Shown piece after piece: positions 15,001 to 55,324 of a DNA stretch of 64,000 nt. The notes under the pieces were generated by a model. It saw only the letters and a program-made list of their open reading frames with translations. It was not told the origin of the DNA and searched no databases. The stretch is from NCBI GenBank assembly GCA_964017235.1, contig OZ024938.1:61805816-61869815 (forward strand). Reading direction: 5' to 3'. This DNA comes from Sabellastarte sp. h YS-2021. Its lineage: Eukaryota > Annelida > Polychaeta > Sabellida > Sabellidae. A program made the translations under genes and the position numbers. Every line of letters begins with the position of its first letter. The first letter of the stretch is position 1.

Positions 15001-18000
15001 TTTTCTAATTTGCATATTTTATTTCATAATATTGCTAGGAAAACCCCACGGAAGTAAGAGAATTTGAAGTATTTGATCTTTAACCTAACAGACTTAAAGC
15101 AGCATTTCTATTCATTAAATATAAAATGTTGTTAGAAATTCCCACCTAATTGGGTAATCTCGTATTTCTTCATTAATATTATAACCTGCGTGTGCAAGTA
15201 TTTGATATTTAAGTAGAAATAATATTTATTATTATAAAATGATTGTGTACGAGTTGTGGGTATGAGTTGTTGGTCATGAGATGCTGTGGTCACGAGTTGC
15301 ATGTAAATCATTTTCATGTAGGTTTGACTGATCACTGCCGCCAGATTATGGTCTCCCTTAAATAATTATATCCCCAGATGAAAGTCGGGGATATATTGGA
15401 TTCAGGTCCGTCGCGCCGCCGCCGCCGTAGAAATTTCCTTGTGGACGCGATAACTCAAAAACGGATTAATATTTTTTTTTCAAACTTGGTACACATGTTA
15501 AGGATGCCCAAAGGAAGATCCCTATTTTAAGGTGACCTTAAACTCCCAATAATAAAGAACTTATGGCCACCTTAAGGTCAGAAATTGCACTTTTGGCCAC
15601 TTAGAGCCCTCTAGGTCACAAACTATGAGGCTTATCTGCCTCAAATTTTACCTGAGAACACATTAATATATTCTTAGTACATGTGCCGAAAATCAAGACT
15701 TTAAGTTGAGGAGAAAATTGTCTTTGAGGCCCATAAAGACCCCACTTAGGACTTTTTGGAAGTGGTAATTCTGATGAGTCTCAAACTGCACTAGATGTAA
15801 CTCTTATATGTAATCCTTGTCTGTGAAAAATTTAAAGGCTGTAGGTTTACCTGTTAGGCCGACTTAAGATCTCAAAATTGCCCACAGAGACCCAATTTAT
15901 GGACTTTTTGCCATCTTCAAGCACTGTAGCTTTCAAACTATGTCTCTCATCTAAGTGAAATATCATCTGAGAATATATCAATATGTTTTTCTTGTATGTA
16001 CTCCAAAATTTAGGCCTTTAATAGACATTTAACCCATGTATGAGGACCATAAACACCCACCCGAGTGACCCTTTTAAGACATTTTTCACATATTTTGCTC
16101 TGTAACTTGGAAATGGTAAGTTTGAGAAGTTTCAAACTGTATTAGATATATATTCTATGTGTAATGTTAGTATGTAACAGATTTTAAGTCTGAAGCTTTA
16201 ATTAGATTTAATTAGTATTTGAACAAGGATGGATGGTCTGAGCAGGTGAAATCTTCTAAGCAGGAGTTTTGCAATTGTTTGGAAAGAATGTTGATGGAAA
16301 TTAGAAATAAAAATATACAATAGTAAATTGGAATGTGCAGAGAGTAGATTGGATATACTGTCTTTCAGATTACTTTCTCCTAAATGGGATCTTTGGACAT
16401 TTAAAAATCATGTGTCTTTTTGTATCAATATGGTTTAATTAATACAAGTTTAATACTTGAGTGTTAAAAGACAGATTTGAACAATCAATTTAGTTTGCAT
16501 GTGATTGAGGCTAAACAATTTAAAAAGACCTCAGTGCAGTGTAAATCTTTTTGGACAACTTGCATTGTGACAAAGTTGGACAAATTAAAAGACAGATTTG
16601 AACAATCAATTAAGTTTGCATGTGTTTGAGGCTAAACAATTTAAAAAGACCTCAGTGCAGTGTAAATCTTTTTGGACAACCTGCATTGTGACAAAGTTGG
16701 ACAAACAAGCTTGACAAACTAATTATAGTTCAAAAAGAAGTGAATTAGTGAAAGAGGGCTAAATTGGGCATTGAATAATAAAAACATGCACCTTTTGTCA
16801 ACCTGCCTGACTGGTTTACCTGAGAAAACAAAGTTCATTGGATATCACTTGTCACCATATGAAAAAGGAACAAACTATTAACTAATCTGGTTTATCAAAC
16901 ATACAGTGTTAGTGTCTTGTGAAGTTAGATTATCCTTTGACTATAAAAAAAAGGAAAGTTAATCTACCAAAATAGTTAAAGATGTCAGGAAAAAACACTG
17001 TTTGTAGTTTACGTGATGGAAGGAGATCTAGTTCACAGCCTAATGTGTCTAAGTCACAAAAAAGATCCATTGACTTTGTTTCTCCCACATCACCAGAAAA
17101 CACACTTACTTTGTCTTCCATGCGGATACTCCTCAAGGAAAGCATGGCTCCTGTTACTGCTGACCTTGATGACTTGAAAGCTTCAGCTCAATCTACTGAT
17201 GCAAAACTGGATGAGATAACTTCCTTGACCAAAAGAATAGACAACTTAGAAAAAGAGAATTCTGATTTGAAAAGTAAGTTAGAAAGATCAGATGCAAGGT
17301 GTAAAGCACTTGAAGAGCGTGTGATCTCTATGGAAAGTTACAGCAGGCGTCATAATCTTAAATTCATCAATGTTGCAGACCAGTCAGCCAGTGAGAATTG
17401 CGAGCAACTTATCCTAGAGCTCTGTAACAGGCTTGATATTCACTTGGATGATCATCAGATAGATCGTGCCCACAGGCTTGGAAGTAAATCGAAAGTAAAA
17501 GCTCCAATTCTGGTTAAGTTCCTGAGCTACAAGGTCAGGCAACGTGTGTTAAGAGAGAAAGCAAGGTTTAAAGAGAAGGGTATTCTTGTTGTGGAAGATT
17601 ATCCAAAAGAAGTCCTACAGCGCCGCAAAATGTTCACACCTACACTGAATGCTGCTTATAACTCCCATTCACACAAAGCAAGGCTGCAAGGTGACAAGTT
17701 GTTACTTGATGACAAGCTGTACTCCATTAACGATTTCAACAAGCTGCCTGAAGAGTTAAGACCTGAAAACCTCACCACAATCACAAAGCAAAACATGACA
17801 GCCTTCTTTTCGCGTCACTCCAAGCTATCAAACCACTATCCATGTGAATTTATGCAGGATGGCGTTTTTTATGTGTCTGTTGAACAATGCCTAATGCATA
17901 AGAAAGCTGCTCTCTTTGATGACTATCACACTGCCACTGCTATCCTGAAATGCAAGGATCCAGCTGACGCAAAAGCCTTAGGGAAAAAGGTGCATAACTA

Positions 18001-18721
18001 CAACTCAGATGTCTGGAACAAAAATAGGGACTTGATCATGAAGTCCGCCATAGATGCGAAATTTTCCCAAAATCACTCTCTTGCTGAGTTCCTCAAGAGT
18101 ACGGGCAACAACATTTTAATTGAAGCTAATCCTTTTGACCGATACTGGGGTGTAGGTCAATCCCTACAAGATGCTAATATTTGGAAGAAGGACTTGTGGA
18201 ACGGTCGTAATAAGCTTGGGACCATACTAGCTGAAATTCGTGCTAAGTTGTCTAGACAGTGATTCTGTATGAAAAACTTGAAATAGTTACTCTGTCTTTT
18301 TAAAAAAACTTTAAACTAAATGTTAATCGTATTGCAAAAACAGCCTGACCATATCGAAAAAATAAGATGTTTATATGTTATTTGAACCTGTTTTTTAACT
18401 GCTATTAAAAACTACCTATATTTGTTAAAGATAATGTAAGTCAGATTACTTTTACATACAAAAACTATGTCCAAATAGTTTAATAATCAAAACTGCCTAT
18501 AAAACAGTGTTCTAATGTATTTAAAGTTGTTTCAAACTACCTTTTTGATCATGTTTTGTTAACATAATTAAAAACTGCTTTGATTATAATTATACGCAAT
18601 ACTGACTAATACTTAAAAGATTCATTTTATAAGATATGTTTCAAGTTAATTACATATATTCAACAAGAACCTTATTGGTAGATACATCAATTTGTGCAGA
18701 TCACTCTCATTTTATTTAAAA

Positions 18722-18782
<61 letters not shown>

Positions 18783-21700
18783 AACTGTTTCTAATTGTAA
18801 ATTGGCTGAAGGCTAACACTCTAAACTAATACTGATAATGTTTTGTAATTAAAACATCCCAACCTACTAAAGAAAATTATAGATCATGTTTTGTTAACTT
18901 TGATTATGATTATACGCAAATACTGAATATCAATTAAAAGACTAATTTTATGTGATATGTTTGAATTTGATTACATTTATTCAACAAGTATCTTATTTGT
19001 ACTTACATCATTTTGTGCAGATCACTCTCATCTTATTTAAAACTATTGAAAATTGGTGTTTTTTGTTTTACGGTTCCTAATTGTAAATTGGCTGAAGGCT
19101 AACTTTCTAAAACAAATACTGATGTTATTGTAATTAAAAGACCATTTTTAATAGTTTTTCCTTATATGTATTTTTTTTTTTTTTTTTTACAAAATAAAAA
19201 CTGCTTATCATTATGATTATACATAAATACAGAATATTAATTAGAAGACTTATTTCAATAGTCCTTTTCCTTATATGTATTTTTATTCTATCTAAGTTTG
19301 TTATTTTCAAAATTATTCTTTGATTTAATGATACACCTACCCAGAAATCCATCATAGAGTTTTAACATTAATGCCTAATATATTTTGGATATTACAAAAT
19401 CCTGCAGTGGAGTTTCCCTTCCCCATTTGACCATATGCTTGTTCTGTATGTCATATTGTATATAAACATTGTACATATGTTTTTCCATGTAAATGCCAGG
19501 TATTCAGTTTTTATAAATGTCAACGTTCATGATAGAGTCCTCTATAAAAATTACAGCAAGTGTTGCAGTGAATTATATTTAAATCTTTATAAGGAAGTGC
19601 ACATTTTAAGTTTATTTTTTGAGTCTAAAAATATGTTATGGCTAACAACCCTGAAACATTGAATATCTTTAGCCTAAATGCAAGAGGCTTGGGAGATAAA
19701 AAGAAAAGACAGGCTGTTTTCAATTGGTTAAATGACAAAGGTCCTGGTATATTTCTTATTCAGGAAGCCCACTCATGTCCTGAAAAGGAAAACGAATGGC
19801 GTTCTATGTGGAATGGTGTTATAAAATTTTCTCATGGCACTTCAAACAGCAGGGGACTTGCAGTTTTGATTTCCAGTGGCTTTGATATTAATATCACAAA
19901 AACCGTTACCGATAATGATGGAAGGTTTTTAATCCTTACTTGCACTGTTTCAGATTTAAATCTTACATTTGTAAATATTTATGCACCTACTATTGATAAG
20001 AGAAGTGAACAAGTGGCTTTTGCCAACTCTATCTGTGAAACATTAAGTAACTACAAAGAAGAAAATATTATCTTAGGCGGTGATTTAAATATCAATCTTG
20101 ACACCTATGCCACAGATGGACTGTATAGCAAAAAGCCAAGCTATAGGAAAGCCTTATTATCGTTAATGGATCCACATGATCTTGTTGATATCTGGAGAAT
20201 TCAGCACCCAGATATTCTGCGTTACACACGTCGAGAAAAGACTAAATCTGGTTTGAAGCAGTCCCGATTAGATTACTTTCTCATCCCATGTAATATGGGT
20301 TATATCACAACTCACACTGATATCAAGCCTAGTATTAAATCTGACCATAGTCTTCTTCATATACGTTTAGCTCTTTTAGGTCAACAAAGACGAGGAAAAG
20401 GATTTTGGAAGTTAAATGTAAAACTACTATCGGATAAAAAATACATAGAGCTTATTAAAAATGTGATAAAAGACTCGATTTCTGATGCTAAAAATCTTAC
20501 ACAAGACTCTCTAATTTGGGATTTCATAAAATGTAGAATACGATCTGAGAGTATATCTTATTCCATAGCCAAAAGAAAAATGGAGAGGCAAGAGATTGAA
20601 TCATTAACTAAACACTTAAGTGAATTAGAAGAAATAATATCTACCTCACCTACTACAGAATCCTTGGATGAGTATAGCCTTATTAAAACACAGCTAAATG
20701 GTCACTATGAGGAATTAGCAAAAGGTTCTATAATCAGATCACGCTGTCAACAAATTCATGAATCGGAAAAGCCAACCCAATACTTTTTCAACTTAGAAAA
20801 GGCCAATTACAACATTAAGCATATTAGGTCCTTAAAACATAATGATGAATACATTTCTGATCCTCAAAAAATTTTAGATCTACAGAAAAGGTATTTTTCA
20901 AAAATCTATACTGAAACAATTCATGACAGTGAAAAACTGCAATCTGAAACTAACTTTTATTTAAATAAAATTAACATTCCATCTATTTCAGAGGACAGTA
21001 AGTTTTCTTGTGACCTTCCCATTTCTTTGGAAGAAGTAAAGACAGCAGTCCAAAGTATGGCCAATAACAAATCTCCTGGCCCGGATGGCATTCCTACTGA
21101 GTTTTACAAAACCTTCTGGCCTGACATTGGCGAGTCAGTTTATAGAAGTTTTACACTTGCTTACGAGCTAGGTAAATTATGTGGTAGTCAAAAACAGGGT
21201 GTAATCACCCTTATACCGAAAAAAGACAAAGATTTAACAGATTTGAAGTCATGGCGCCCACTTTCTATCTTGAACACGGACTACAAAATTATTGCAAAAG
21301 TATTAAGTACCAGGCTAAAATCTGTTTTAAAGGAAATTATAAACCCAGATCAGGTAGGCTACATGAAAGAGAGACTTTGTGGGGAGAATACTAGACTTAT
21401 TTCAGATGTGATAGAATATTGTACAATTAAAAATCTTCCAAGCATAATCTTATTGGCGGACTTCGAAAAAGCTTTCGATTCAGTAAAATGGTCTTTTTTG
21501 ACACAGATCTTGGGCTTTTATGGCTTTGGACAAAACTTTAGAAAGTGGATCTCTATTTTGTATAAAGACTCTGAGAGTTGTGTGACAAACAATGGGTATT
21601 TGTCTTCATTCTTTAAACTGTCAAAAGGCATCAGACAAGGTTGCCCAATAAGCGCACTGCTATTTTTGTTAATAGCTGAAATTGTAGCCATTGTTTTAAG

Positions 21701-24700
21701 AAGCTCCGAAAGGATACATGGCATAAATGTCAATGGGAAAAATATAAAATTCTGTCAATTAGCTGATGATTTAACATTGTTTTTATCCAATACCCCTTCT
21801 GTCTTAAGTGCAATAGAAATTTTTGAAGAATTCTACAGATATGCTGGCTTAAAGTTAAATAAATCAAAAACTATTGCTTTTCTTTTAAAAACTGATCAGG
21901 AAAAGGTCTATCAAGATGACAACATTGGTATTCAATGGACATCAAAACCATTCAAAACTTTAGGTGCATGGTTTTCCCCCGACATTGGTGAGTCCTCGCA
22001 GCTAAATATACAAGGTAAAATGATAACAATTAAAAAAATTTTAAATTCCTGGTCTGCTAGATGCCTTACCTTAAAAGGTAAGATTACTGTTATAAAGTCT
22101 CTGGTAATCCCACATATTCTGCAGCTTGCTTCTATTGTAACTTTTAGCCACAATCTGATATCGGATATAGATAAAATACTGTTTGAATTCATTTGGAAAA
22201 AAAACACCTAGTTTCAAAAAATACTTTACAGCTGTCTTACGACCTAGGAGGTTTAAAAATGGTATCTGTCAACCACATTGTAGAAACAGCAAAAATCATG
22301 TGGGTTAAAAGGTTTTTCAGTGAAATAAATGCAAGTTGGAAAATCTTGGCATCAGAGCTGATGGGACTTGGAAAACATGTCTTGTTGAAAAAACAGTCTT
22401 TCAATAGTATCAAAAATAATGTGAAGACTATCTTCTACTATGATCTATTACGTATTTGGTTTCAATTTCTGATGAAAAATTTAAAAAATGTAGATAACGT
22501 GCTTCATGAGCCAATTTTTAATAATCCCCATTTCTTGGTGGGAAATCATCCATTATCATCTCAGAATGTGAAAAATCCAGTGTTAAAGTGTTTCACTGTC
22601 CAGGACATTTGGGACAGTGATCATGATACTTTCAGATCTAGAAATTATATTGAAAATTTTTATAACATTAGTTTGCCATATATGTTATACAATCAGGTTG
22701 TTAGATCAGTGTCATCTGTAATGAAGTTGATTAACAAATGTGGTAACAACATTGCCCTGGAAAGATGCTGTAATATTCCTGATAAGTGTCTGTCTAACAT
22801 AAGCCAAATAAAAAGTTCAGAGGTTTATTCATATTTCTTAGCACTTGAGTATAAGACACCAAAGAGTCAGGAAAAATGGATTGAAAACTACCCATTTCTT
22901 GAAAGTTTGGACTGGAAACCAGTGTATTTACTTCCAAATTTAATCCTAAATGATGCTTACCTGATCACCTTTCAATATAAAATACTACATAGAGTTTTTG
23001 CCTGCAATTATAACCTCTTTAAGTGGAATATTAAAAATTCACCTCTCTGTGACATCTGTCAAAAAATAGACAATCTTGAACATTATTTCTACTATTGCAT
23101 AGACACAAATGTATTCTGGGTTCAAGTAAAGAGCTGGCTGAACCAGTTGTTATCTATTGAATTGAGCTTGACTGTCTTGGAGATATTTTTCGGAGTCTTA
23201 AAGTTGGACCCAAAGGACTGGTATACAGTTAACTTTGTTATACTAATAGGGAAAAAATTTATATCAAAGTGCAAAAAAAATAACAAAGAATTATTTTTTA
23301 ACAATTTTCTGGAGTACCTAAATTGGATGTTAAGTTTAGAAGAGGGGGTCTACATCAGGCAGGGAAAATCAACAGCATTCTCTGCAAGATATAGCCTCTT
23401 GCAAGCACATTTTTTCTAATTTTCTAATTTATCCATATAATGAGTGAATATGTATGTGTATCTTCCTGTACAATTTATTTTCTCTTTTTGTTCTAATTAT
23501 TGTCTGCTCACCTTTTGTATCTTTTTGAATATCTTTTTAGATCTATTGTACATCTTGTGTCATGCTGTTTTTCTGGCAATAAAAACAAATAAAAAAAAAA
23601 AAAAAAAAAAAAGTCTGAAGCTTTAATTTGAAGGTCAAATTGAGGTCTCTGACGGGCTCCCAAAGACCCAATATATGGACTTTTTGCCACCTTTAAGCCC
23701 TGTGACTGTTAAACTATGTTATTGATGGAGCTGAAATCCCATCTGGGAATGCATTATTATGTCCTTTTTACATGTGCCGAAAATCAAGGCTTTAAGTAGA
23801 CATTTAACCTGTGTTTGAGGACCATAAATCCCCACCCGAGTGACCCTTTTTAGACATTTTTCACATATTTTGCCCTGTAACTTGGAAATGGTAAGTCTGA
23901 GAAGTTTCAAACTGTATTAGATATATATTCTATGTGTAATCTTAGTATGTGACAAATTTTAAGTCTGAAGCTTTAATTTGAAGGCCACATTGAGGTCTCT
24001 AAAAGGCCCCATAGAGACCCACTATTTGGACTTTTTGCCAGTTTTAAGGCCCATGACTGTTAAACTATGTGACTGATAGAGCTGAAATCTCATCTGGGAA
24101 TACATTATTATGTTCTTTTTACATGTGCCAAAAATCAAGGCTTCAAGTAGACATTTAAACTGTGTTTGAGGACCATTAACACCCACCCGAGTGACTGTTT
24201 TAAGACATTTTTCACATATTTTGCTCTGTAACTTGGAAATGGTGAGTCTGAGAAGTTTCAAACTTTATTATTAGATACATATTCTATGTGTAGTCTTAGT
24301 ATGTAGCAGATTTTAAGTCTGATGCTTTAATTTGAAGGCCACATCGAGATCTCTAAAAGGCCCACAGAGACCCAATATTTGGACTTTTTGCCACCTTTAA
24401 GCCCTGTGACTGTTAAACTATGTGATTGATTGAGCTGAAATCCCATCTGGGAATGCATTATTATGTCCTTTTCACATGTGCCGAAAATCAAGGCTTTTAG
24501 TAGACATTTAACCTGTGTATGAGGGCCATAGACACTTGCCCAAGTGACCTTTTTTGACATTTTTTTTCTGTATTTTGCCCTGTTATTTGGAAATGCTTAG
24601 TGTGACAAGTCTTAAACTGTATTATATATAATTTTTGTTGGTTGTGTATGCCCCCCAAAAAGTTTCAGTTCTGTAGTTTAATTGCTAAGGTCTCTTTAAC

Positions 24701-37260: not shown

Positions 37261-38549
37261 TCCACCCCCCTGGGGGGTGGATATATTATTTTTGCTTTTT
37301 TCGCCGTCCGATGTCCGATGTCCGGCGTCCGGCGTCCGGCGTCCGATGTCCGGCGTCACGCATGGTTTCCGCTCATTTAAAGGAAAAGTATTAGAGCTAT
37401 TGTCACCAAATTTGGTATGCAGGCTTATTGGGTCAGTAGCTTGCTTGGGATTGCTTTTGGCTGTTGTACCTCTTTTGCTTACTGAGTAATACTTAAGTAC
37501 AGCTATTTTCAGTACCCATTGGTTTCCGTGCATTTAAGCCAAAATAATTAAAGATATTTTACTACAATTTTGAATACAAGATTGTTATGCCCATAGCTCG
37601 CTTGGTATTGCATTTGGGACTGATAGCTTTGTCAGTACATGAGTAATAGCCATTTAGGTACTTCATTGTGTATTTTCAGTACTACTTTTGAGTAATTTGC
37701 TAATATCTCAGAAACCGTGTGAGATAGAGCGATTTCGTCGAAATTTTCGACCCACAGGGTATTTAAGGAATGTAATATTTGCAATTTTCAAAAAATTTTC
37801 CCCTCCCCAAAAATGGCGGCCATTTTGAATTTTCGAATTTTTGCCAAAAATGGCAAAACACTAATTTGCTTCTATCTCCTTAACCGTGCGAGATAGAGCG
37901 ATTTCGTCAAAATTTTCGACCCACAGGGTATCTGAGCATTGTACTCTTGGTAATTTTAAAAAAATTTTCCCCTCCCCAAAAATGGCGGCCATTTTGAATT
38001 TTCGAATTTTTGCCAAAAATGGCAAAACACAAATTTGCTTCTATCTCCTTAACCGTGCCAGATAGAGCGATTTCGTCAAAATTTTTGACCCACAGGGCAT
38101 CTGAGCATTGTGCTCTTGGTAATTTTTCCAAAAATTTTCCCCTCCCCAAAAATGGCGGCCATTTTGAATTTTCGAATTTTTGCCAAAAATGGCAAAACAC
38201 TAATTTGCTTCTATCTCCTTAACCGTGCGAGATAGAGTGATTTCGTCGAAATTTTCGACCCACAGAATATCTAAGGAATGCAATTTTTGCAATTTTCAAA
38301 AAATTTTCCCCTCCCCAAAAATGGCGGCCATTTTGAATTTTCGAATTTTTGCCAAAAATGGCAAAACACAAATTTGCTTCTATCTCCTTAACCGTGCCAG
38401 ATAGAGCGATTTCGTCAAAATTTTCGACCTACAGGGTATCTGAGCATTGTGCTCTTGGTAATTTTTACAAAATTTTCCCCTCCCCAAAAATGGCGGCCAT
38501 TTTGAATTTTCGAATTTTTGCCAAAAATGGCAAAACACTAATTTGCTTC

Positions 38550-41500
38550 TATCTCCTTAACCGTGCGAGATAGAGCGATTTCGTCGAAATTTTCGACCCA
38601 CAGGGTATCTAAGGAATGTAATCTTTGCAATTTTCCAAAAATTTTCCCCTCCCCAAAAATGGCGGCCATTTTGAATTTTCGAATTTTTGCCAAAAATGGC
38701 AAAACACAAATTTGCTTCTATCTCCTTAACCGTGCGAGATAGAGCGATTTCGTCGAAATTTTCGACCCACAGGGTAACTAAGGAATGCAATCTTTGCAAT
38801 TTTCAAAAAATTTTCCCCTCCCCAAAAAATGGCGGCCATTTTGAATTTTCGAATTTTTGCCAAAAATGGCAAAACACAAATTTCCTTCTATCTCCTTAAC
38901 CGTGCCAGATAGAGCGATTTCGTCAAAATTTTCGACCCACAGGGTATCTGAGCATTGTACTCTTGGCAATTTTTAAAAAAATTTCCCCTCCCCAAAAATG
39001 GCGGCCATTTTGAATTTTCGAATTTTTGCCAAAAATGGCAAAACACTAATTTGCTTCTATCTCCTTAACCGTGCGAGATAGAGTGATTTCGTCGAAATTT
39101 TCGACCCACAGGGTATCTAAGGAATGCAATCTTTGCAATTTTCCAAAAATTTTCCCCTCCCCAAAAATGGCGGCCATTTTGAATTTTCGAATTTTTGCCC
39201 AAAATGGCAAAACAAATTTCCTTCTATCTCCTTAACCGTGCGAGATAGAGCGATTTCGTCGAAATTTTCGACCCACAGGGTATCTAAGGAATGCAATCTT
39301 TGCAATTTTCAAAAAATTTTCCCCTCCCCAAAAATGGCGGCCATTTTGAATTTTCGAATTTTTGCCAAAAATGGCAAAACACCAATCTGCTTCTATCTCC
39401 TTAACCGTGCGAGATAGAGCGATTTCGTCAAAATTTTTGACCCACAGGGCATCTGAGCATTGTACTCTTGGTAATTTTTAAAAAATTTTCCCCTCCCCAA
39501 AAATGGCGGCCATTTTGAATTTTCGAATTTTTGCCAAAAATGGCAAAACACAAATTTGCTTCTATCTCCTTAACCGTGCCAGATAGAGCGATTTTGTCAA
39601 AATTTTCGACCCACAGGGTATCTGAGCATTGTGCTCTTGGTAATTTTTACAAAATTTTCCCCTCCCCAAAAATGGCGGCCATTTTGAATTTTCGAATTTT
39701 TGCCAAAAATGACAAAACACTAATTTGCTTCTATCTCCTTAACCGTGCGAGATAGCGCGATTTCGTCGAAATTTTCGACCCACAGGGTATCTGAGCATTG
39801 TGCTCTTGGTAATTTTCCAAAAATTTTCCCCTCCCCAAAAATGGCGGCCATTTTGAATTTTCGAATTTTTGCCAAAAATGGCAAAACACTAATTTGCTTC
39901 TATCTCCTTAACCGTGCGAGATAGAGCGATTTCGTCGAAATTTTCGACCCACAGGGTATCTAAGGAATGCAATCTTTGCAATTTTCCAAAAATTTTCCCC
40001 TCCCCAAAAATGGCAGCCATTTTGAATTTTCGAATTTTTGCCAAAAATGGCAAAACACAAATTTCCTTCTATCTCCTTAACCGTGCCAGATAGAGCGATT
40101 TCGTCAAAATTTTCGACCCACAGGGTATCTGAGCATTGTACTCTTGGTAATTTTCCAAAAATTTTCCCCTCCCCAAAAATGGCGGCCATTTTGAATTTTC
40201 GAATTTTTGCCAAAAATGGCAAAACACAAATTTGCTTCTATCTCCTTAACCGTGCCAGATAGAGCGATTTCGTCAAAATTTTCGACCCACAGGGTATCTA
40301 AGGAATGCAATCTTTGCAATTTTCCAAAAATTTTCCCCTCCCCAAAAATGGCGGCCATTTTGAATTTTCGAATTTTTGCCAAAAATGGCAAAACACAAAT
40401 TTCCTCCTATCTCCTTAACCGTGCCAGATAGAGCGATTTCGTCAAAATTTTCGACCCACAGGGTATCTGAGCATTGTACTCTTGGTAATTTTCAAAAAAT
40501 TTTCCCCTCCCCAAAAATGGCGGCCATTTGAACTTTCGAATTTTTGCCAAAAATGGCAAAACACTAATTTGCTTCTATCTCCTTAACCGTGCGAGATAGA
40601 GTGATTTCGTCGAAATTTTCGACCCACAGGGTATCTAAGGAATGCAATCTTTGCAATTTTCCAAAAATTTTCCCCTCCCCAAAAATGGCGGCCATTTTGA
40701 ATTTTCGAATTTTTGCCAAAAATGGCAAAACACAAATTTGCTTCTATCTCCTTAACCGTGCCAGATAGAGCGATTTCGTCAAAATTTTTGACCCTCAGGG
40801 TATCTGAGCATTGTGCTCTTGGTAATTTTTCCAAAAATTTTCCCCTCCCCAAAAATGGCGGCCATTTTGAATTTTCGAATTTTTGCCAAAAATGGCAAAA
40901 CACTAATTTGCTTCTATCTCCTTAACCGTGCGAGATAGAGTGATTTCGTCGAAATTTTCGACCCACAGGGTATCTAAGGAATGCAATTTTTGCAATTTTC
41001 AAAAAATTTTCCCCTCCCCAAAAATGGCGGCCATTTTGAATTTTCGAATTTTTGCCAAAAATGGCAAAACACAAATTTGCTTCTATCTCCTTAACCGTGC
41101 CAGATAGAGCGATTTCGTCAAAATTTTCGACCCACAGGGTATCTGAGCATTGTGCACTTGGTAATTTTTACAAAATTTTCCCCTCCCCAAAAATGGCGGC
41201 CATTTTGAATTTTCGAATTTTTGCCAAAAATGGCAAAACACAAATTTGCTTCTATCTCCTTAACCGTGCGAGATAGAGCGATTTCGTCGAAATTTTCGAC
41301 CCACAGGGTAACTAAGGAATGCAATCTTTGCAATTTTCCAAAAATTTTCCCCTCCCCAAAAAATGGCGGCCATTTTGAATTTTCGAATTTTTGCCAAAAA
41401 TGGCAAAACACAAATTTCCTTCTATCTCCTTAACCGTGCCAGATAGAGCGATTTCGTCAAAATTTTCGACCCACAGGGTATCTGAGCATTGTACTCTTGG

Positions 41501-44500
41501 CAATTTTTAAAAAAATTTCCCCTCCCCAAAAATGGCGGCCATTTTGAATTTTCGAATTTTTGCCAAAAATGGCAAAACACTAATTTGCTTCTATCTCCTT
41601 AACCGTGCGAGATAGAGTGATTTCGTCGAAATTTTCGACCCACAGGGTATCTAAGGAATGCAATCTTTGCAATTTTCCAAAAATTTTCCCCTCCCCAAAA
41701 ATGGCGGCCATTTTGAATTTTCGAATTTTTGCCAAAAATGGCAAAACACAAATTTGCTTCTATCTCCTTAACCGTGCGAGATAGAGCGATTTCGTCGAAA
41801 TTTTCGACCCACAGGGTATCTAAGGAATGCAATCTTTGCAATTTTCAAAAAATTTTCCCCTCCCCAAAAATGGCGGCCATTTTGAATTTTCGAATTTTTG
41901 CCAAAAATGGCAAAACACCAATCTGCTTCTATCTCCTTAACCGTCCGAGATAGAGCGATTTCGTCAAAATTTTCGACCCACAGGGCATCTGAGCATTGTA
42001 CTCTTGGTAATTTTTAAAAAATTTTCCCCTCCCCAAAAATGGCGGCCATTTTGAATTTTCGAATTTTTGCCAAAAATGGCAAAACACAAATTTGCTTCTA
42101 TCTCCTTAACCGTGCCAGATAGAGCGATTTTGTCAAAATTTTCGACCCACAGGGTATCTGAGCATTGTGCTCTTGGTAATTTTTACAAAATTTTCCCCTC
42201 CCCAAAAATGGCGGCCATTTTGAATTTTCGAATTTTTGCCAAAAATGACAAAACACTAATTTGCTTCTATCTCCTTAACCGTGCGAGATAGCGCGATTTC
42301 GTCGAAATTTTCGACCCACAGGGTATCTGAGCATTGTGCTCTTGGTAATTTTCCAAAAATTTTCCCCTCCCCAAAAATGGCGGCCATTTTGAATTTTCGA
42401 ATTTTTGCCAAAAATGGCAAAACACTAATTTGCTTCTATCTCCTTAACCGTGCGAGATAGAGCGATTTCGTCGAAATTTTCGACCCACAGGGTATCTAAG
42501 GAATGTAATCTTTGCAATTTTCCAAAAATTTTCCCCTCCCCAAAAATGGCGGCCATTTTGAATTTTCGAATTTTTGCCAAAAATGGCAAAACACAAATTT
42601 GCTTCTATCTCCTTAACCGTGCGAGATAGAGCGATTTCGTCGAAATTTTCGACCCACAGGGTAACTAAGGAATGCAATCTTTGCAATTTTCAAAAAATTT
42701 TCCCCTCCCCAAAAAATGGCGGCCATTTTGAATTTTCGAATTTTTGCCAAAAATGGCAAAACACAAATTTCCTTCTATCTCCTTAACCGTGCCAGATAGA
42801 GCGATTTCGTCAAAATTTTCGACCCACAGGGTATCTGAGCATTGTACTCTTGGCAATTTTTAAAAAAATTTCCCCTCCCCAAAAATGGCGGCCATTTTGA
42901 ATTTTCGAATTTTTGCCAAAAATGGCAAAACACTAATTTGCTTCTATCTCCTTAACCGTGCGAGATAGAGTGATTTCGTCGAAATTTTCGACCCACAGGG
43001 TATCTAAGGAATGCAATCTTTGCAATTTTCCAAAAATTTTCCCCTCCCCAAAAATGGCGGCCATTTTGAATTTTCGAATTTTTGCCCAAAATGGCAAAAC
43101 AAATTTCCTTCTATCTCCTTAACCGTGCGAGATAGAGCGATTTCGTCGAAATTTTCGACCCACAGGGTATCTAAGGAATGCAATCTTTGCAATTTTCAAA
43201 AAATTTTCCCCTCCCCAAAAATGGCGGCCATTTTGAATTTTCGAATTTTTGCCAAAAATGGCAAAACACCAATCTGCTTCTATCTCCTTAACCGTGCGAG
43301 ATAGAGCGATTTCGTCAAAATTTTTGACCCACAGGGCATCTGAGCATTGTACTCTTGGTAATTTTTAAAAAATTTTCCCCTCCCCAAAAATGGCGGCCAT
43401 TTTGAATTTTCGAATTTTTGCCAAAAATGGCAAAACACAAATTTGCTTCTATCTCCTTAACCGTGCCAGATAGAGCGATTTTGTCAAAATTTTCGACCCA
43501 CAGGGTATCTGAGCATTGTGCTCTTGGTAATTTTTACAAAATTTTCCCCTCCCCAAAAATGGCGGCCATTTTGAATTTTCGAATTTTTGCCAAAAATGAC
43601 AAAACACTAATTTGCTTCTATCTCCTTAACCGTGCGAGATAGCGCGATTTCGTCGAAATTTTCGACCCACAGGGTATCTGAGCATTGTGCTCTTGGTAAT
43701 TTTCCAAAAATTTTCCCCTCCCCAAAAATGGCGGCCATTTTGAATTTTCGAATTTTTGCCAAAAATGGCAAAACACTAATTTGCTTCTATCTCCTTAACC
43801 GTGCGAGATAGAGCGATTTCGTCGAAATTTTCGACCCACAGGGTATCTAAGGAATGCAATCTTTGCAATTTTCCAAAAATTTTCCCCTCCCCAAAAATGG
43901 CAGCCATTTTGAATTTTCGAATTTTTGCCAAAAATGGCAAAACACAAATTTCCTTCTATCTCCTTAACCGTGCCAGATAGAGCGATTTCGTCAAAATTTT
44001 CGACCCACAGGGTATCTGAGCATTGTGCTCTTGGTAATTTTTACAAAATTTTCCCCTCCCCAAAAATGGCGGCCATTTTGAATTTTCGAATTTTTGCCAA
44101 AAATGACAAAACACTAATTTGCTTCTATCTCCTTAACCGTGCGAGATAGCGCGATTTCGTCGAAATTTTCGACCCACAGGGTATCTGAGCATTGTGCTCT
44201 TGGTAATTTTCCAAAAATTTTCCCCTCCCCAAAAATGGCGGCCATTTTGAATTTTCGAATTTTTGCCAAAAATGGCAAAACACTAATTTGCTTCTATCTC
44301 CTTAACCGTGCGAGATAGAGCGATTTCGTCGAAATTTTCGACCCACAGGGTATCTAAGGAATGTAATCTTTGCAATTTTCCAAAAATTTTCCCCTCCCCA
44401 AAAATGGCGGCCATTTTGAATTTTCGAATTTTTGCCAAAAATGGCAAAACACAAATTTGCTTCTATCTCCTTAACCGTGCGAGATAGAGCGATTTCGTCG

Positions 44501-46440
44501 AAATTTTCGACCCACAGGGTAACTAAGGAATGCAATCTTTGTAATTTTTAAAAAATTTTCCCCTCCCCAAAAAATGGCGGCCATTTTGAATTTTCGAATT
44601 TTTGCCAAAAATGGCAAAACACAAATTTCCTTCTATCTCCTTAACCGTGCCAGATAGAGCGATTTCGTCAAAATTTTCGACCCACAGGGTATCTGAGCAT
44701 TGTACTCTTGGCAATTTTTAAAAAAATTTCCCCTCCCCAAAAATGGCGGCCATTTTGAATTTTCGAATTTTTGCCAAAAATGGCAAAACACTAATTTGCT
44801 TCTATCTCCTTAACCGTGCGAGATAGAGTGATTTCGTCGAAATTTTCGACCCACAGGGTATCTAAGGAATGCAATCTTTGCAATTTTCCAAAAATTTTCC
44901 CCTCCCCAAAAATGGCGGCCATTTTGAATTTTCGAATTTTTGCCCAAAATGGCAAAACAAATTTCCTTCTATCTCCTTAACCGTGCGAGATAGAGCGATT
45001 TCGTCGAAATTTTCGACCCACAGGGTATCTAAGGAATGCAATCTTTGCAATTTTCAAAAAATTTTCCCCTCCCCAAAAATGGCGGCCATTTTGAATTTTC
45101 GAATTTTTGCCAAAAATGGCAAAACACCAATCTGCTTCTATCTCCTTAACCGTGCGAGATAGAGCGATTTCGTCAAAATTTTTGACCCACAGGGCATCTG
45201 AGCATTGTACTCTTGGTAATTTTTAAAAAATTTTCCCCTCCCCAAAAATGGCGGCCATTTTGAATTTTCGAATTTTTGCCAAAAATGGCAAAACACAAAT
45301 TTGCTTCTATCTCCTTAACCGTGCCAGATAGAGCGATTTTGTCAAAATTTTCGACCCACAGGGTATCTGAGCATTGTGCTCTTGGTAATTTTTACAAAAT
45401 TTTCCCCTCCCCAAAAATGGCGGCCATTTTGAATTTTCGAATTTTTGCCAAAAATGACAAAACACTAATTTGCTTCTATCTCCTTAACCGTGCGAGATAG
45501 CGCGATTTCGTCGAAATTTTCGACCCACAGGGTATCTGAGCATTGTGCTCTTGGTAATTTTCCAAAAATTTTCCCCTCCCCAAAAATGGCGGCCATTTTG
45601 AATTTTCGAATTTTTGCCAAAAATGGCAAAACACTAATTTGCTTCTATCTCCTTAACCGTGCGAGATAGAGCGATTTCGTCGAAATTTTCGACCCACAGG
45701 GTATCTAAGGAATGCAATCTTTGCAATTTTCCAAAAATTTTCCCCTCCCTAAAAATGGCAGCCATTTTGAATTTTCGAATTTTTGCCAAAAATGGCAAAA
45801 CACAAATTTCCTTCTATCTCCTTAACCGTGCCAGATAGAGCGATTTCGTCAAAATTTTCGACCCACAGGGTATCTGAGCATTGTACTCTTGGTAATTTTC
45901 CAAAAATTTTCCCCTCCCCAAAAATGGCGGCCATTTTGAATTTTCGAATTTTTGCCAAAAATGGCAAAACACAAATTTGCTTCTATCTCCTTAACCGTGC
46001 CAGATAGAGCGATTTCGTCAAAATTTTCGACCCACAGGGTATCTAAGGAATGCAATCTTTGCAATTTTCCAAAAATTTTCCCCTCCCCAAAAATGGCGGC
46101 CATTTTGAATTTTCGAATTTTTGCCAAAAATGGCAAAACACAAATTTCCTCCTATCTCCTTAACCGTGCCAGATAGAGCGATTTCGTCAAAATTTTCGAC
46201 CCACAGGGTATCTGAGCATTGTACTCTTGGTAATTTTCCAAAAATTTTCCCCTCCCCAAAAATGGCGGCCATTTGAACTTTCGAATTTTTGCCAAAAATG
46301 GCAAAACACTAATTTGCTTCTATCTCCTTAACCGTGCGAGATAGAGTGATTTCGTCGAAATTTTCGACCCACAGGGTATCTAAGGAATGCAATCTTTGCA
46401 ATTTTCCCCTCCCCAAAAATGGCGGCCATTTTGAATTTTC
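38550..46440 (+). repeat. Overlapping higher-order repeats with 3,887-, 2,536-, 1,858- and 5,734/5,745-bp offsets
   Basis: The short monomer TTTGCCCAAAATGGCAAAAC lies at about 39196, 43083 and 44941 (offsets 3,887 and 1,858). The 39531 and 42067 monomers match at 2,536. The block at 40038-42290 recurs from 45783 to 48025, with an offset that changes from 5,745 to 5,734 because an 11-bp piece is missing near 46405. The offsets are all near whole multiples of the monomer (23, 15, 11 and 34), as unequal exchange would give. Confidence 0.85.
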
Positions 46441-49400
46441 GAATTTTTGCCAAAAATGGCAAAACACAAATTTGCTTCTATCTCCTTAACCGTGCCAGAT
46501 AGAGCGATTTCGTCAAAATTTTTGACCCTCAGGGTATCTGAGCATTGTGCTCTTGGTAATTTTTCCAAAAATTTTCCCCTCCCCAAAAATGGCGGCCATT
46601 TTGAATTTTCGAATTTTTGCCAAAAATGGCAAAACACTAATTTGCTTCTATCTCCTTAACCGTGCGAGATAGAGTGATTTCGTCGAAATTTTCGACCCAC
46701 AGGGTATCTAAGGAATGCAATTTTTGCAATTTTCAAAAAATTTTCCCCTCCCCAAAAATGGCGGCCATTTTGAATTTTCGAATTTTTGCCAAAAATGGCA
46801 AAACACAAATTTGCTTCTATCTCCTTAACCGTGCCAGATAGAGCGATTTCGTCAAAATTTTCGACCCACAGGGTATCTGAGCATTGTGCACTTGGTAATT
46901 TTTACAAAATTTTCCCCTCCCCAAAAATGGCGGCCATTTTGAATTTTCGAATTTTTGCCAAAAATGGCAAAACACAAATTTCCTTCTATCTCCTTAACCG
47001 TGCCAGATAGAGCGATTTCGTCAAAATTTTCGACCCACAGGGTATCTGAGCATTGTACTCTTGGCAATTTTTAAAAAAATTTCCCCTCCCCAAAAAATGG
47101 CGGCCATTTTGAATTTTCGAATTTTTGCCAAAAATGGCAAAACACAAATTTCCTTCTATCTCCTTAACCGTGCCAGATAGAGCGATTTCGTCAAAATTTT
47201 CGACCCACAGGGTATCTGAGCATTGTACTCTTGGCAATTTTTAAAAAAATTTCCCCTCCCCAAAAATGGCGGCCATTTTGAATTTTCGAATTTTTGCCAA
47301 AAATGGCAAAACACTAATTTGCTTCTATCTCCTTAACCGTGCGAGATAGAGTGATTTCGTCGAAATTTTCGACCCACAGGGTATCTAAGGAATGCAATCT
47401 TTGCAATTTTCCAAAAATTTTCCCCTCCCCAAAAATGGCGGCCATTTTGAATTTTCGAATTTTTGCCAAAAATGGCAAAACACAAATTTGCTTCTATCTC
47501 CTTAACCGTGCGAGATAGAGCGATTTCGTCGAAATTTTCGACCCACAGGGTATCTAAGGAATGCAATCTTTGCAATTTTCAAAAAATTTTCCCCTCCCCA
47601 AAAATGGCGGCCATTTTGAATTTTCGAATTTTTGCCAAAAATGGCAAAACACCAATCTGCTTCTATCTCCTTAACCGTCCGAGATAGAGCGATTTCGTCA
47701 AAATTTTCGACCCACAGGGCATCTGAGCATTGTACTCTTGGTAATTTTTAAAAAATTTTCCCCTCCCCAAAAATGGCGGCCATTTTGAATTTTCGAATTT
47801 TTGCCAAAAATGGCAAAACACAAATTTGCTTCTATCTCCTTAACCGTGCCAGATAGAGCGATTTTGTCAAAATTTTCGACCCACAGGGTATCTGAGCATT
47901 GTGCTCTTGGTAATTTTTACAAAATTTTCCCCTCCCCAAAAATGGCGGCCATTTTGAATTTTCGAATTTTTGCCAAAAATGGCAAAACACTAATTTGCTT
48001 CTATCTCCTTAACCGTGCGAGATAGAGCGATTTCGTCGAAATTTTCGACCCACAGGGTATCTAAGGAATGCAATCTTTGCAATTTTCCAAAAATTTTCCC
48101 CTCCCCAAAAATGGCGGCCATTTTGAATTTTCGAATTTTTGCCAAAAATGGCAAAACACAAATTTCCTTCTATCTCCTTAACCGTGCCAGATAGAGCGAT
48201 TTCGTCAAAATTTTCGACCCACAGGGTATCTGAGCATTGTACTCTTGGTAATTTTCCAAAAATTTTCCCCTCCCCAAAAATGGCGGCCATTTTGAATTTT
48301 CGAATTTTTGCCAAAAATGGCAAAACACAAATTTGCTTCTATCTCCTTAACCGTGCCAGATAGAGCGATTTCGTCAAAATTTTCGACCCACAGGGTATCT
48401 AAGGAATGCAATCTTTGCAATTTTCCAAAAATTTTCCCCTCCCCAAAAATGGCGGCCATTTTGAATTTTCGGATTTTTGCCAAAAATGGCAAAACACAAA
48501 TTTCCTCCTATCTCCTTAACCGTGCCAGATAGAGCGATTTCGTCAAAATTTTCGACCCACAGGGTATCTGAGCATTGTACTCTTGGTAATTTTTAAAAAA
48601 TTTTCCCCTCCCCAAAAATGGCGGCCATTTGAACTTTCGAATTTTTGCCAAAAATGGCAAAACACTAATTTGCTTCTATCTCCTTAACCATGCGAGATAG
48701 AGTGATTTCGTCGAAATTTTCGACCCACAGGGTATCTAAGGAATGCAATCTTTGCAATTTTCCAAAAATTTTCCCCTCCCCAAAAATGGCGGCCATTTTG
48801 AATTTTCGAATTTTTGCCAAAAATGGCAAAACACAAATTTGCTTCTATCTCCTTAACCGTGCCAGATAGAGCGATTTCGTCAAAATTTTTGACCCACAGG
48901 GTATCTGACCATTGTGCTCTTGGTAATTTTTACAAAATTTTCCCCTCCCCAAAAATGGCGGCCATTTTGAATTTTCGAATTTTTGCCAAAAATGGCAAAA
49001 CACTAATTTGCTTCTATCTCCTTAACCGTGCCAGATAGAGCGATTTCGTCGAAATTTTCGACCCACAGGGTATCTAAGGAATGTAATCTTTGCAATTTTC
49101 CAAAAATTTTCCCCTCCCCAAAAATGGCGGCCATTTTGAATTTTCGAATTTTTGCCAAAAATGGCAAAACACAAATTTGCTTCTATCTCCTTAACCGTGC
49201 GAGATAGAGCAATTTCGTCGAAATTTTCGACCCACAGGGTATCTAAGGAATGCAATCTTTGCAATTTTCCAAAAATTTTCCCCTCCCCAAAAAATGGCGG
49301 CCATTTTGAATTTTCGAATTTTTGCCAAAAATGGCAAAACACAAATTTGCTTCTATCTCCTTAACCGTGCCAGATAGAGCGATTTCGTCAAAATTTTTGA

Positions 49401-52190
49401 CCCTCAGGGTATCTGAGCATTGTGCTCTTGGTAATTTTTCCAAAAATTTTCCCCTCCCCAAAAATGGCGGCCATTTTGAATTTTCGAATTTTTGCCAAAA
49501 ATGGCAAAACACTAATTTGCTTCTATCTCCTTAACCGTGCGAGATAGAGTGATTTCGTCGAAATTTTCGACCCACAGGGTATCTAAGGAATGCAATTTTT
49601 GCAATTTTCAAAAAATTTTCCCCTCCCCAAAAATGGCGGCCATTTTGAATTTTCGAATTTTTGCCAAAAATGGCAAAACACAAATTTGCTTCTATCTCCT
49701 TAACCGTGCCAGATAGAGCGATTTCGTCAAAATTTTCGACCCACAGGGTATCTGAGCATTGTGCACTTGGTAATTTTTACAAAATTTTCCCCTCCCCAAA
49801 AATGGCGGCCATTTTGAATTTTCGAATTTTTGCCAAAAATGGCAAAACACAAATTTCCTTCTATCTCCTTAACCGTGCCAGATAGAGCGATTTCGTCAAA
49901 ATTTTCGACCCACAGGGTATCTGAGCATTGTACTCTTGGCAATTTTTAAAAAAATTTCCCCTCCCCAAAAAATGGCGGCCATTTTGAATTTTCGAATTTT
50001 TGCCAAAAATGGCAAAACACAAATTTCCTTCTATCTCCTTAACCGTGCCAGATAGAGCGATTTCGTCAAAATTTTCGACCCACAGGGTATCTGAGCATTG
50101 TACTCTTGGCAATTTTTAAAAAAATTTCCCCTCCCCAAAAATGGCGGCCATTTTGAATTTTCGAATTTTTGCCAAAAATGGCAAAACACTAATTTGCTTC
50201 TATCTCCTTAACCGTGCGAGATAGAGTGATTTCGTCGAAATTTTCGACCCACAGGGTATCTAAGGAATGCAATCTTTGCAATTTTCCAAAAATTTTCCCC
50301 TCCCCAAAAATGGCGGCCATTTTGAATTTTCGAATTTTTGCCAAAAATGGCAAAACACAAATTTGCTTCTATCTCCTTAACCGTGCGAGATAGAGCGATT
50401 TCGTCGAAATTTTCGACCCACAGGGTATCTAAGGAATGCAATCTTTGCAATTTTCAAAAAATTTTCCCCTCCCCAAAAATGGCGGCCATTTTGAATTTTC
50501 GAATTTTTGCCAAAAATGGCAAAACACCAATCTGCTTCTATCTCCTTAACCGTCCGAGATAGAGCGATTTCGTCAAAATTTTCGACCCACAGGGCATCTG
50601 AGCATTGTACTCTTGGTAATTTTTAAAAAATTTTCCCCTCCCCAAAAATGGCGGCCATTTTGAATTTTCGAATTTTTGCCAAAAATGGCAAAACACAAAT
50701 TTGCTTCTATCTCCTTAACCGTGCCAGATAGAGCGATTTTGTCAAAATTTTCGACCCACAGGGTATCTGAGCATTGTGCTCTTGGTAATTTTTACAAAAT
50801 TTTCCCCTCCCCAAAAATGGCGGCCATTTTGAATTTTCGAATTTTTGCCAAAAATGGCAAAACACTAATTTGCTTCTATCTCCTTAACCGTGCGAGATAG
50901 AGCGATTTCGTCGAAATTTTCGACCCACAGGGTATCTAAGGAATGCAATCTTTGCAATTTTCCAAAAATTTTCCCCTCCCCAAAAATGGCGGCCATTTTG
51001 AATTTTCGAATTTTTGCCAAAAATGGCAAAACACAAATTTCCTTCTATCTCCTTAACCGTGCCAGATAGAGCGATTTCGTCAAAATTTTCGACCCACAGG
51101 GTATCTGAGCATTGTACTCTTGGTAATTTTCCAAAAATTTTCCCCTCCCCAAAAATGGCGGCCATTTTGAATTTTCGAATTTTTGCCAAAAATGGCAAAA
51201 CACAAATTTGCTTCTATCTCCTTAACCGTGCCAGATAGAGCGATTTCGTCAAAATTTTCGACCCACAGGGTATCTAAGGAATGCAATCTTTGCAATTTTC
51301 CAAAAATTTTCCCCTCCCCAAAAATGGCGGCCATTTTGAATTTTCGGATTTTTGCCAAAAATGGCAAAACACAAATTTCCTCCTATCTCCTTAACCGTGC
51401 CAGATAGAGCGATTTCGTCAAAATTTTCGACCCACAGGGTATCTGAGCATTGTACTCTTGGTAATTTTTAAAAAATTTTCCCCTCCCCAAAAATGGCGGC
51501 CATTTGAACTTTCGAATTTTTGCCAAAAATGGCAAAACACTAATTTGCTTCTATCTCCTTAACCATGCGAGATAGAGTGATTTCGTCGAAATTTTCGACC
51601 CACAGGGTATCTAAGGAATGCAATCTTTGCAATTTTCCAAAAATTTTCCCCTCCCCAAAAATGGCGGCCATTTTGAATTTTCGAATTTTTGCCAAAAATG
51701 GCAAAACACAAATTTGCTTCTATCTCCTTAACCGTGCCAGATAGAGCGATTTCGTCAAAATTTTTGACCCACAGGGTATCTGACCATTGTGCTCTTGGTA
51801 ATTTTTACAAAATTTTCCCCTCCCCAAAAATGGCGGCCATTTTGAATTTTCGAATTTTTGCCAAAAATGGCAAAACACTAATTTGCTTCTATCTCCTTAA
51901 CCGTGCCAGATAGAGCGATTTCGTCGAAATTTTCGACCCACAGGGTATCTAAGGAATGTAATCTTTGCAATTTTCCAAAAATTTTCCCCTCCCCAAAAAT
52001 GGCGGCCATTTTGAATTTTCGAATTTTTGCCAAAAATGGCAAAACACAAATTTGCTTCTATCTCCTTAACCGTGCGAGATAGAGCAATTTCGTCGAAATT
52101 TTCGACCCACAGGGTATCTAAGGAATGCAATCTTTGCAATTTTCCAAAAATTTTCCCCTCCCCAAAAAATGGCGGCCATTTTGAATTTTC
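46440..52190 (+). repeat. Higher-order repeat, two consecutive 2,875-bp blocks (17 monomers each)
   Basis: Private variants recur at exactly 2,875 bp: TCTGACCATTG at 48905 and 51780, AACCATGCGAG at 48688 and 51563, TTTTCGGATTTTT near 48467 and 51342. All monomers from about 46,450 to 49,320 reappear in the same order from about 49,325 to 52,200. Confidence 0.9.
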
Positions 52191-54952: not shown

Positions 54953-55324
54953 AGCCAATTTCAGTGTTTTATAGAGCAATGGCAAAATAAATATAGCCAA
55001 TTTCAGTGTTTTATAGAGCAATGGCAAAATAAATATAGCCAATTTCAGTGTTTTATAGAGCAATGGCAAAATAAATATAGCCAATTTCAGTGTTTTATAG
55101 AGCAATGGCAAAATAAATATAGCCAATTTCAGTGTTTTATAGAGCAATGGCAAAATAAATATAGCCAATTTCAGTGTTTTATAGAGCAATGGCAAAATAA
55201 ATATAGCCAATTTCAGTGTTTTATAGAGCAATGGCAAAATAAATATAGCCAATTTCAGTGTTTTATAGAGCAATGGCAAAATAAATATAGCCAATTTCAG
55301 TGTTTTATAGAGCAATGGCAAAAT
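54953..55324 (+). repeat. 42-bp minisatellite, 8.9 near-identical copies
   Basis: The unit contains AGCCAATTTCAGTGTTTTAT and AGAGCAATGGCAAAATAAATAT. The period of 42 is divisible by three, so frames stay open on both strands (152 and 123 codons), giving a repetitive 14-residue peptide. Eight copies contain an AATAAA; the last partial copy does not. The lack of divergence among copies shows recent expansion. Confidence 0.97.

Follow-up and report, generated by a model that had tools for sequence, protein, structure and literature searches.

The genome of the polychaete Sabellastarte sp. h YS-2021 contains a long interspersed nuclear element (LINE) whose first open reading frame (ORF1) encodes an L1-type protein (ORF1p) ending in a complete NADAR domain, a fusion that the analysis described here confirmed as real. 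The element lies in a stretch of 64,000 nucleotides (assembly GCA_964017235.1, contig OZ024938.1, positions 61,805,816 to 61,869,815 of the forward strand), referred to as the window, and the coordinates below are those of the window. NADARs hydrolyse guanine-adenosine diphosphate (ADP)-ribose on DNA (PMC11543638) and RNA (PMC11833690), and a eukaryotic, YbiA-type NADAR of Phytophthora is reported to act on the same adduct (PMC11543638). The most likely reading, which we put at a probability of about 0.55, is that this is a recently active LINE of the L1/Tx1 type, the NADAR of which strips ADP-ribose from guanine and so protects the retrotransposition intermediate. The activity of the domain, its substrate and its benefit to the element are all things that we infer.

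A single open frame at 16982-18262 on the forward strand encodes 426 amino acids, made up of the L1-type ORF1p followed by the NADAR. That this frame is uninterrupted, at these coordinates and with the NADAR motifs in place, had been proposed by a model that saw only the letters and open reading frames (the original prediction), and was found to be so when the sequence was re-read. The proposed C-terminal NADAR was also borne out by the profile PF08719, which matches residues 278-423 with an E-value of 3.5e-40 (138.4 bits against a cut-off of 35.1) in an alignment spanning profile positions 9-162 of 163, hence the whole domain. The equivalog-domain model TIGR02464, for a riboflavin-intermediate N-glycosidase, matches as well (6.4e-41; 140.1 against a cut-off of 73.7), and the best match of the domain in the PDB is 8bau (6.7e-22), followed by Escherichia coli YbiA, 2b3w (2.3e-4). 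Ahead of the NADAR, residues 81-225 match human L1 ORF1p (2ykp) at 9.7e-4 as a single sequence, while a 23-row ORF1p profile matches 2ykp at 6.6e-9 (positions 79-227) and 2ldy at 5.1e-4 (positions 124-227), such that the L1-type series of coiled coil, RNA recognition motif (RRM) and C-terminal domain (CTD) is evident from the profile and weak from the single sequence. The coiled coil itself has generic Pfam coiled-coil matches only, for example bZIP_1 at 2.5e-4, below its cut-off. Pfam Transposase_22 was absent from the 22 families matching the window ORF1 at E<=1, and a search of the genome with this model (PF02994) found five weakly matching relatives, two of them barely over the cut-off (23.1 against 22.4 bits). 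The description of a 'standard L1-type ORF1' was right as to kind, but the resemblance is distant.

ORF1 sits inside a LINE insertion with both ends intact (16204-23612), arranged as follows.

16186..16203, no strand: left target-site duplication, AAGTCTGAAGCTTTAATT, with the identical 18 bases at 23611-23628
16204..16981, + strand: 5' untranslated region, from comparison with copies L002-L004 and the flanks
16982..18262, + strand: ORF1, 426 amino acids (coiled coil, RRM+CTD, NADAR), from the frame and the Pfam and structure-profile matches
17198..17347, + strand: coiled coil, residues ~73-122, from generic coiled-coil Pfam matches and the alignment
17348..17776, + strand: RRM-like and C-terminal domain, residues 123-265, from the profile match to 2ykp and 2ldy
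17804..18250, + strand: NADAR, residues 275-423 (E301, K308, W345, E381, D386, W389), from PF08719 and the residue map to 8bau
18263..19637, + strand: AT-rich ORF1-ORF2 spacer (1.4 kb) with a long T run, aligned in L001-L004, L006 and L007
19638..22211, + strand: first part of ORF2, apurinic/apyrimidinic (AP)-type endonuclease and reverse transcriptase, from PF03372 (5.2e-7) and PF00078 (2.9e-35)
22193..23419, + strand: remainder of ORF2 in a different frame, zf-RVT at 5.2e-4, below its cut-off
23591..23612, + strand: poly(A) tail, from the sequence
23611..23628, no strand: right target-site duplication, identical to the left 18 bases

The element is an L1-type LINE by virtue of its ORF2, which encodes an AP-type endonuclease and a reverse transcriptase, of the coiled coil, RRM and CTD in its ORF1p, and of its target-site duplication and poly(A) tail; the Tx1 label suggests itself from resemblance to oyster elements compared by description (PMC12477816). 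When compared with solved structures only, ORF2 matches L1 ORF2p at 5.8e-90 over 8-855 and R2 at 4.7e-24. It is frame-broken near 22200 in the window copy and forms a single frame of ~1263 amino acids in several other copies. The first two A of the duplicated 18 bases overlap the poly(A), leaving 16 that are sure. In a comparison covering the window copy, L003, L004, L006 and L007, 15 bases are common to both ends of L003 (three overlapping poly(A)) and 14 to those of L004 (two overlapping), different in sequence from those of the window copy, and the 5'-truncated L006 and L007 have only 8 and 6. Site-specific insertion was considered and rejected, as the sequences on either side of the window copy and of L003 and L004 have no target in common. 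The 5' end common to L003 and L004 corresponds to 16223, with 19 additional bases ahead of it in the window copy, and L002 starts at 16225. Two 121 bp direct copies in the 5' region (16464-16584 and 16585-16705), 97.5% alike and matched also in L001-L004, are possibly promoter monomers. A 351 bp tandem array begins at 23611, where the LINE ends.

The fusion is not peculiar to the window. A search of the 1.79 Gb genome with the whole ORF1p, in which the best 98 of 3114 first-look candidates were scored, returned 102 matched stretches; at least six loci in this set, the window's included, encode an identical (100%) ORF1p, dozens of diverged copies match over the full length including the NADAR, and by hand count 79 of the 102 are without a stop, a figure to be read with the knowledge that such lists favour intact copies because they hold the best-scoring ones. 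A one-off gene capture, or an assembly artefact in the window copy, is thus ruled out as an origin of the fusion by identical and diverged copies at many separate places, its probability being practically nil. The NADAR was not selected for in a second search, made with residues 73-265 alone, in which the best 150 of 1472 candidates were scored. From those 150 a sample of 20 rows was taken, made up of one odd 1370-residue frame and otherwise of rows whose frames are short or hold stops, and their downstream DNA was read. Eighteen of the 20 have a NADAR at the junction, often frame-shifted by decay, and homology in the other two (L115 and L117) ends ahead of the ORF1-NADAR junction. All five PF02994 matches carry a NADAR too, which in L103 and L105 is spread across two frames. 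Absence of the domain from other copies had been named as an outcome that would undo the original prediction, as had the lack of a significant PF08719 match. Neither occurred: of the 25 loci read, 23 have a NADAR after ORF1, and in none does an ORF1 of the window lineage reach the junction yet lack the domain. The L117 stretch (G000:C11:26050700-26055200), which holds an RRM+CTD piece without NADAR, also has an unrelated open frame of 718 amino acids in the part fetched, perhaps an insertion of another element.

NADAR-less relatives of the LINE were sought through the reverse transcriptase (78 matches, the best 78 of 29615 candidates), with upstream slices read at 16 of these loci and a second slice at 13 of them. 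A NADAR lies upstream in four (L063, L073, L074 and, as a 23-residue NADAR tail, L075), and the remaining 12, where tblastn at 1e-3 found neither ORF1 nor NADAR homology upstream, count for neither side; an ORF1 lacking NADAR was seen at none of the 16. L062 and L065 look like 5'-truncated copies, since the sequence adjoining their ORF2 (753 or 908 bp) is near-identical to that of NADAR-bearing copies (L062 with L074, L065 with L063). L074 itself (G000:C5:1865739-1868339) belongs to a far-diverged ORF1-NADAR lineage, with a NADAR 33% identical to that of the window and an ORF2 open for 1257 amino acids, as is apparently the case in several other copies by equal scores.

Divergence among copies suggests that the domain has been maintained. 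Twenty ORF1 loci were fetched, of which L039 and L040 were left out for their broken frames, and the other 18, to which the window and L008 were added, make 20 rows, equivalent to 19 families as L043 and L044 are one. Over the 190 pairs of rows, mean pairwise identity is 0.507 in the NADAR, 0.464 in RRM+CTD, 0.354 in the coiled coil and 0.357 in the N-terminus, a lead for the NADAR that holds for the mean only because RRM+CTD matches or exceeds it in several pairs. Distances in RRM+CTD and NADAR are correlated (Mantel r 0.63, p 1e-4, for the 19 families; r 0.86 with four more added). In five distinct pairs at 64-75% NADAR identity, the proportion of synonymous differences within the domain (pS) is 0.76-0.87 and that of non-synonymous differences (pN) 0.14-0.22, so that the dN/dS comparison proposed at the outset gave synonymous change far above non-synonymous; the ratio is well below 1, with an exact value unmeasurable at such near-saturated synonymous change. 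Put most simply, the NADAR would have been passed down along with ORF1 and held by selection as the lineages went on replicating.

PMC11543638 names the residues with which the Phytophthora NADAR contacts ADP-ribose, and this protein, from P. nicotianae, was taken to be 8bau because 13 of 13 residue labels fit its chain at a constant offset of two. The positions are listed below as the Phytophthora/8bau label and the window ORF1p residue, counted over the 19 families.

E43 = E301: kept in 19/19
K50 = K308: kept in 18/19
K75 = K331: kept in 15/19
G78 = G334: kept in 19/19
R79 = K335: K or R in 16/19
V81 = V337: V or I in 17/19
Y84 position: mostly F (16/19)
D86 position: contact not kept
W89 = W345: kept in 19/19
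R93 = R349: kept in 12/19
E125 = E381: kept in 18/19
D130 = D386: kept in 19/19
W133 = W389: kept in 19/19

The pocket residues E43, K50, W89, D130 and W133 are therefore kept, and E381 is the glutamate of YbiA-type NADARs, not the aspartate of the BC4488 type, by the division made in PMC11543638. Loss of catalytic residues across the family, the third outcome that would have told against the original prediction, is ruled out when the 19 families are taken together, nearly all of which retain them; changes occur in single copies and distant lineages.

Such retention would also be explained if the domain were a binding module, since most ADP-ribose contacts are kept. The NADAR could then act as a reader of ADP-ribose or poly(ADP-ribose), bringing the ribonucleoprotein to PARP-marked nicks or forks and aiding target-primed reverse transcription. 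Readers of ADP-ribose often lose their catalytic residues, and we know of no NADAR that binds poly(ADP-ribose), both of which count against this explanation. Moreover, the distal-ribose glutamate E381, kept in 18 of the 19 families, is equivalent to D171 of the C7 NADAR, which is reported to be required for hydrolysis (PMC11543638), making a reader function unlikely.

Alternatively, catalysis may be irrelevant and the NADAR a structural or additional RNA-binding part of ORF1p. A precedent is SNA-3, a protein with three NADAR domains that functions within an RNA-protein complex and whose chemistry is unknown (PMC9303266). Joint mutation of its residues E251, D343 and W346 is described as impairing the protein (PMC9303266), and on our reading of motif and spacing these seem to be the counterparts of E301, D386 and W389. 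A purely structural role is rather improbable, given that the pocket residues are retained site-specifically and that the mean identity of the NADAR exceeds that of RRM+CTD.

A third proposal makes the domain a YbiA-like small-molecule N-glycosidase whose substrates would be riboflavin intermediates or further reactive N-glycosides, nucleic acid not being a direct target; it draws on the TIGR02464 score and on the YbiA type of E381. Fusion to a protein that travels with RNA, however, gives no reason for a metabolic role, and YbiA and other NADARs are reported to be active on guanine-ADP-ribose, so this proposal seems very unlikely.

Under the preferred reading, removal of ADP-ribose from guanine, the LINE NADAR would work through its tether. 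ORF1p would coat the element RNA by means of its coiled coil and RRM/CTD, thereby holding the hydrolase on the template RNA, the first cDNA strand and the nicked target, where it could remove ADP-ribose from guanine bases of the RNA, the cDNA or the target strand. The retrotransposition intermediate would thus be protected from host or environmental ADP-ribosylation that would otherwise block reverse transcription; the mark itself might be written by a defence or a signal of the host, or by a toxin from the environment. Removal of ADP-ribose from the element's nucleic acid, countering a host mark, is also what the original prediction proposed, and the analysis supports that prediction in part, bearing out the fusion, the retained active site and its persistence across the family. 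A more speculative extension, which we hold only tentatively and think more probably wrong than right, is that the NADAR-bearing ORF1p is a LINE-encoded antitoxin against host- or microbe-made guanine ADP-ribosylation, and that nucleic-acid ADP-ribosylation is an unrecognised anti-retrotransposon defence of invertebrates, to which these LINEs would carry the answer. Clams are reported to have a guanine-N2 DNA ADP-ribosyltransferase, CARP-1, with such activity in six edible clams (PMC11209040).

Several observations weigh against removal of ADP-ribose from guanine as the function. No source of the mark emerged from the genome: PF14487 (DarT) had 0 matches at E<=1, in a search for which one of 14 control genomes gave a match, and DarT was not among the Pfam matches of the three scanned window ORFs, leaving no toxin-antitoxin partner there. 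PF22596, which we take to be the Scabin-like family, likewise had 0 matches, with the controls equally silent. Within the pocket, the absence of the D86 contact and the partial retention of R349 stand on the same side, as do the change of E381 to K in family L045 and of K308 to A, with K one place earlier, in family L053. Single copies have lost further residues (W389 to L in L063, E381 to K in L116, and E381, D386 and W389 in L113), L074 has K308 to R and W345 to Y, and the related protein P0016 has W389 to Y. The relatives P0009, P0010 and P0012-P0015 have K308 to R and D386 to N, and keep E301, E381 and W389. The conservation of RRM+CTD equals or exceeds that of NADAR in several close pairs, such as L041/L045 (0.72 against 0.68). 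NADARs also have other activities, YbiA acting on riboflavin intermediates. With regard to R at K308, the equivalent K95R form of the C7 NADAR is reported to be active in vitro and to give no rescue from DarT1 (PMC11543638).

Relatives found by protein searches extend the fusion beyond this genome's copies. P0002, P0003 and P0006 are ORF1-NADAR proteins very near to copies of this genome, and P0009, P0012-P0015 (613-629 amino acids) and P0016 (419 amino acids) are divergent ones at 26-35% identity; a search with the NADAR domain alone gave a single match, P0017. The junction aligns unbroken across the 19 in-genome families and P0005, P0009, P0013 and P0016, the four aligned, which have in common a linker LP..L.P ahead of the NADAR. 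One fusion can be argued for because this junction is common to the LINE families and relatives. In a NADAR tree of 50 rows, including bacterial, archaeal and standalone domains and 35 LINE rows (P0004 was left out for its shortness), the LINE rows cluster strongly and do not form one clade: three label changes are needed, at least two of them forced by well-supported branches, with the bootstrap unsettled, and P0016 stands beside standalone NADARs (94/71) on a long branch. LINEs may accordingly have captured the domain once or several times.

The standalone NADARs of the genome include L009-L038, dispersed ORFs of ~165-180 amino acids that fill the highest NADAR ranks, with scores reaching 168.3 bits and exceeding those of the LINE copies, one motif being common to 29 of the best 30. 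They lie within a repeat that aligns over at least 3 kb between some copies, with tandem units of ~165 bp downstream, and it seems that a second mobile or amplified unit carries NADAR in this genome. In G000:C14:61311159-61329744 two such units flank another insertion of the window's LINE, the ORF1 of which is at 61316517, and L023 lies near another ORF that is presumably inhibitor-of-apoptosis-like. The 15,345 bp contig C647, one of 647 in the genome, carries a COX1 with a single TGA and, judging from its ORFs, further mitochondrial genes; ARAGORN under the bacterial code detected no tRNA there. Elsewhere in the window, 37694-53962 is a satellite array of ~96 copies of a 169 bp unit (92% matches), and 54953-55324 is a perfect 42 bp tandem repeat (8.9 copies) inside a repetitive ORF of 152 amino acids.

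The physiological role of NADARs in animals has been called unclear (PMC11125620). Should the domain act in the way its residues indicate, an abundant group of LINE families carries its own eraser of nucleic-acid ADP-ribosylation, selected through deep divergence, which would suggest that ADP-ribosylated nucleic acid is a real obstacle to retrotransposition in animals. In addition, some of what is annotated as NADAR (DUF1768) protein in invertebrate genomes may in fact derive from LINE ORF1.

The kind of fusion is already known: one sentence of PMC12477816 attributes to several families of oyster Tx1 LINEs an ORF1 protein with what looks like a YbiA-family NADAR, and the same source suggests a part for NADAR in processing RNA intermediates. 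No further report of a LINE ORF1-NADAR fusion was found among the open-access papers listed. What is new is the anatomy, the copy survey, the parallel divergence, the purifying selection and the active-site retention. The Crassostrea gigas Tx1 LINEs (Repbase) resemble the window LINE, by description, in having an ORF1p with an apparent YbiA-family NADAR; unlike the present account, the passages on them in PMC12477816 give no copy survey, selection test or active-site analysis. Ectocarpus Gypsy elements are likewise retrotransposons with a NADAR, for which possible horizontal acquisition has been suggested, and differ in being long terminal repeat elements of a brown alga with the domain in another protein (PMC12477816). 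The P. nicotianae NADAR is the best PDB match and shares the YbiA-type glutamate and largely the same ADP-ribose pocket, but PMC11543638 does not, in the portions concerned, describe it as part of an ORF1p or mobile element. In the DarT1-NADAR pair the antitoxin erases guanine-ADP-ribose (PMC11543638), as the LINE NADAR would. The LINE differs from that pair in having E381 in place of a BC4488-type aspartate, and the genome in having no DarT match. Human L1 shares the coiled coil/RRM/CTD ORF1p and an ORF2p with AP-type endonuclease and reverse transcriptase, and to our knowledge its ORF1p lacks a NADAR. Vertebrates as a whole are said to be devoid of NADARs (PMC11543638). The ORF1p of ZfL2-1 offers a different parallel, an enzyme domain within a LINE ORF1p, which in that case is an SGNH-type esterase that binds lipids (PMC3905857).

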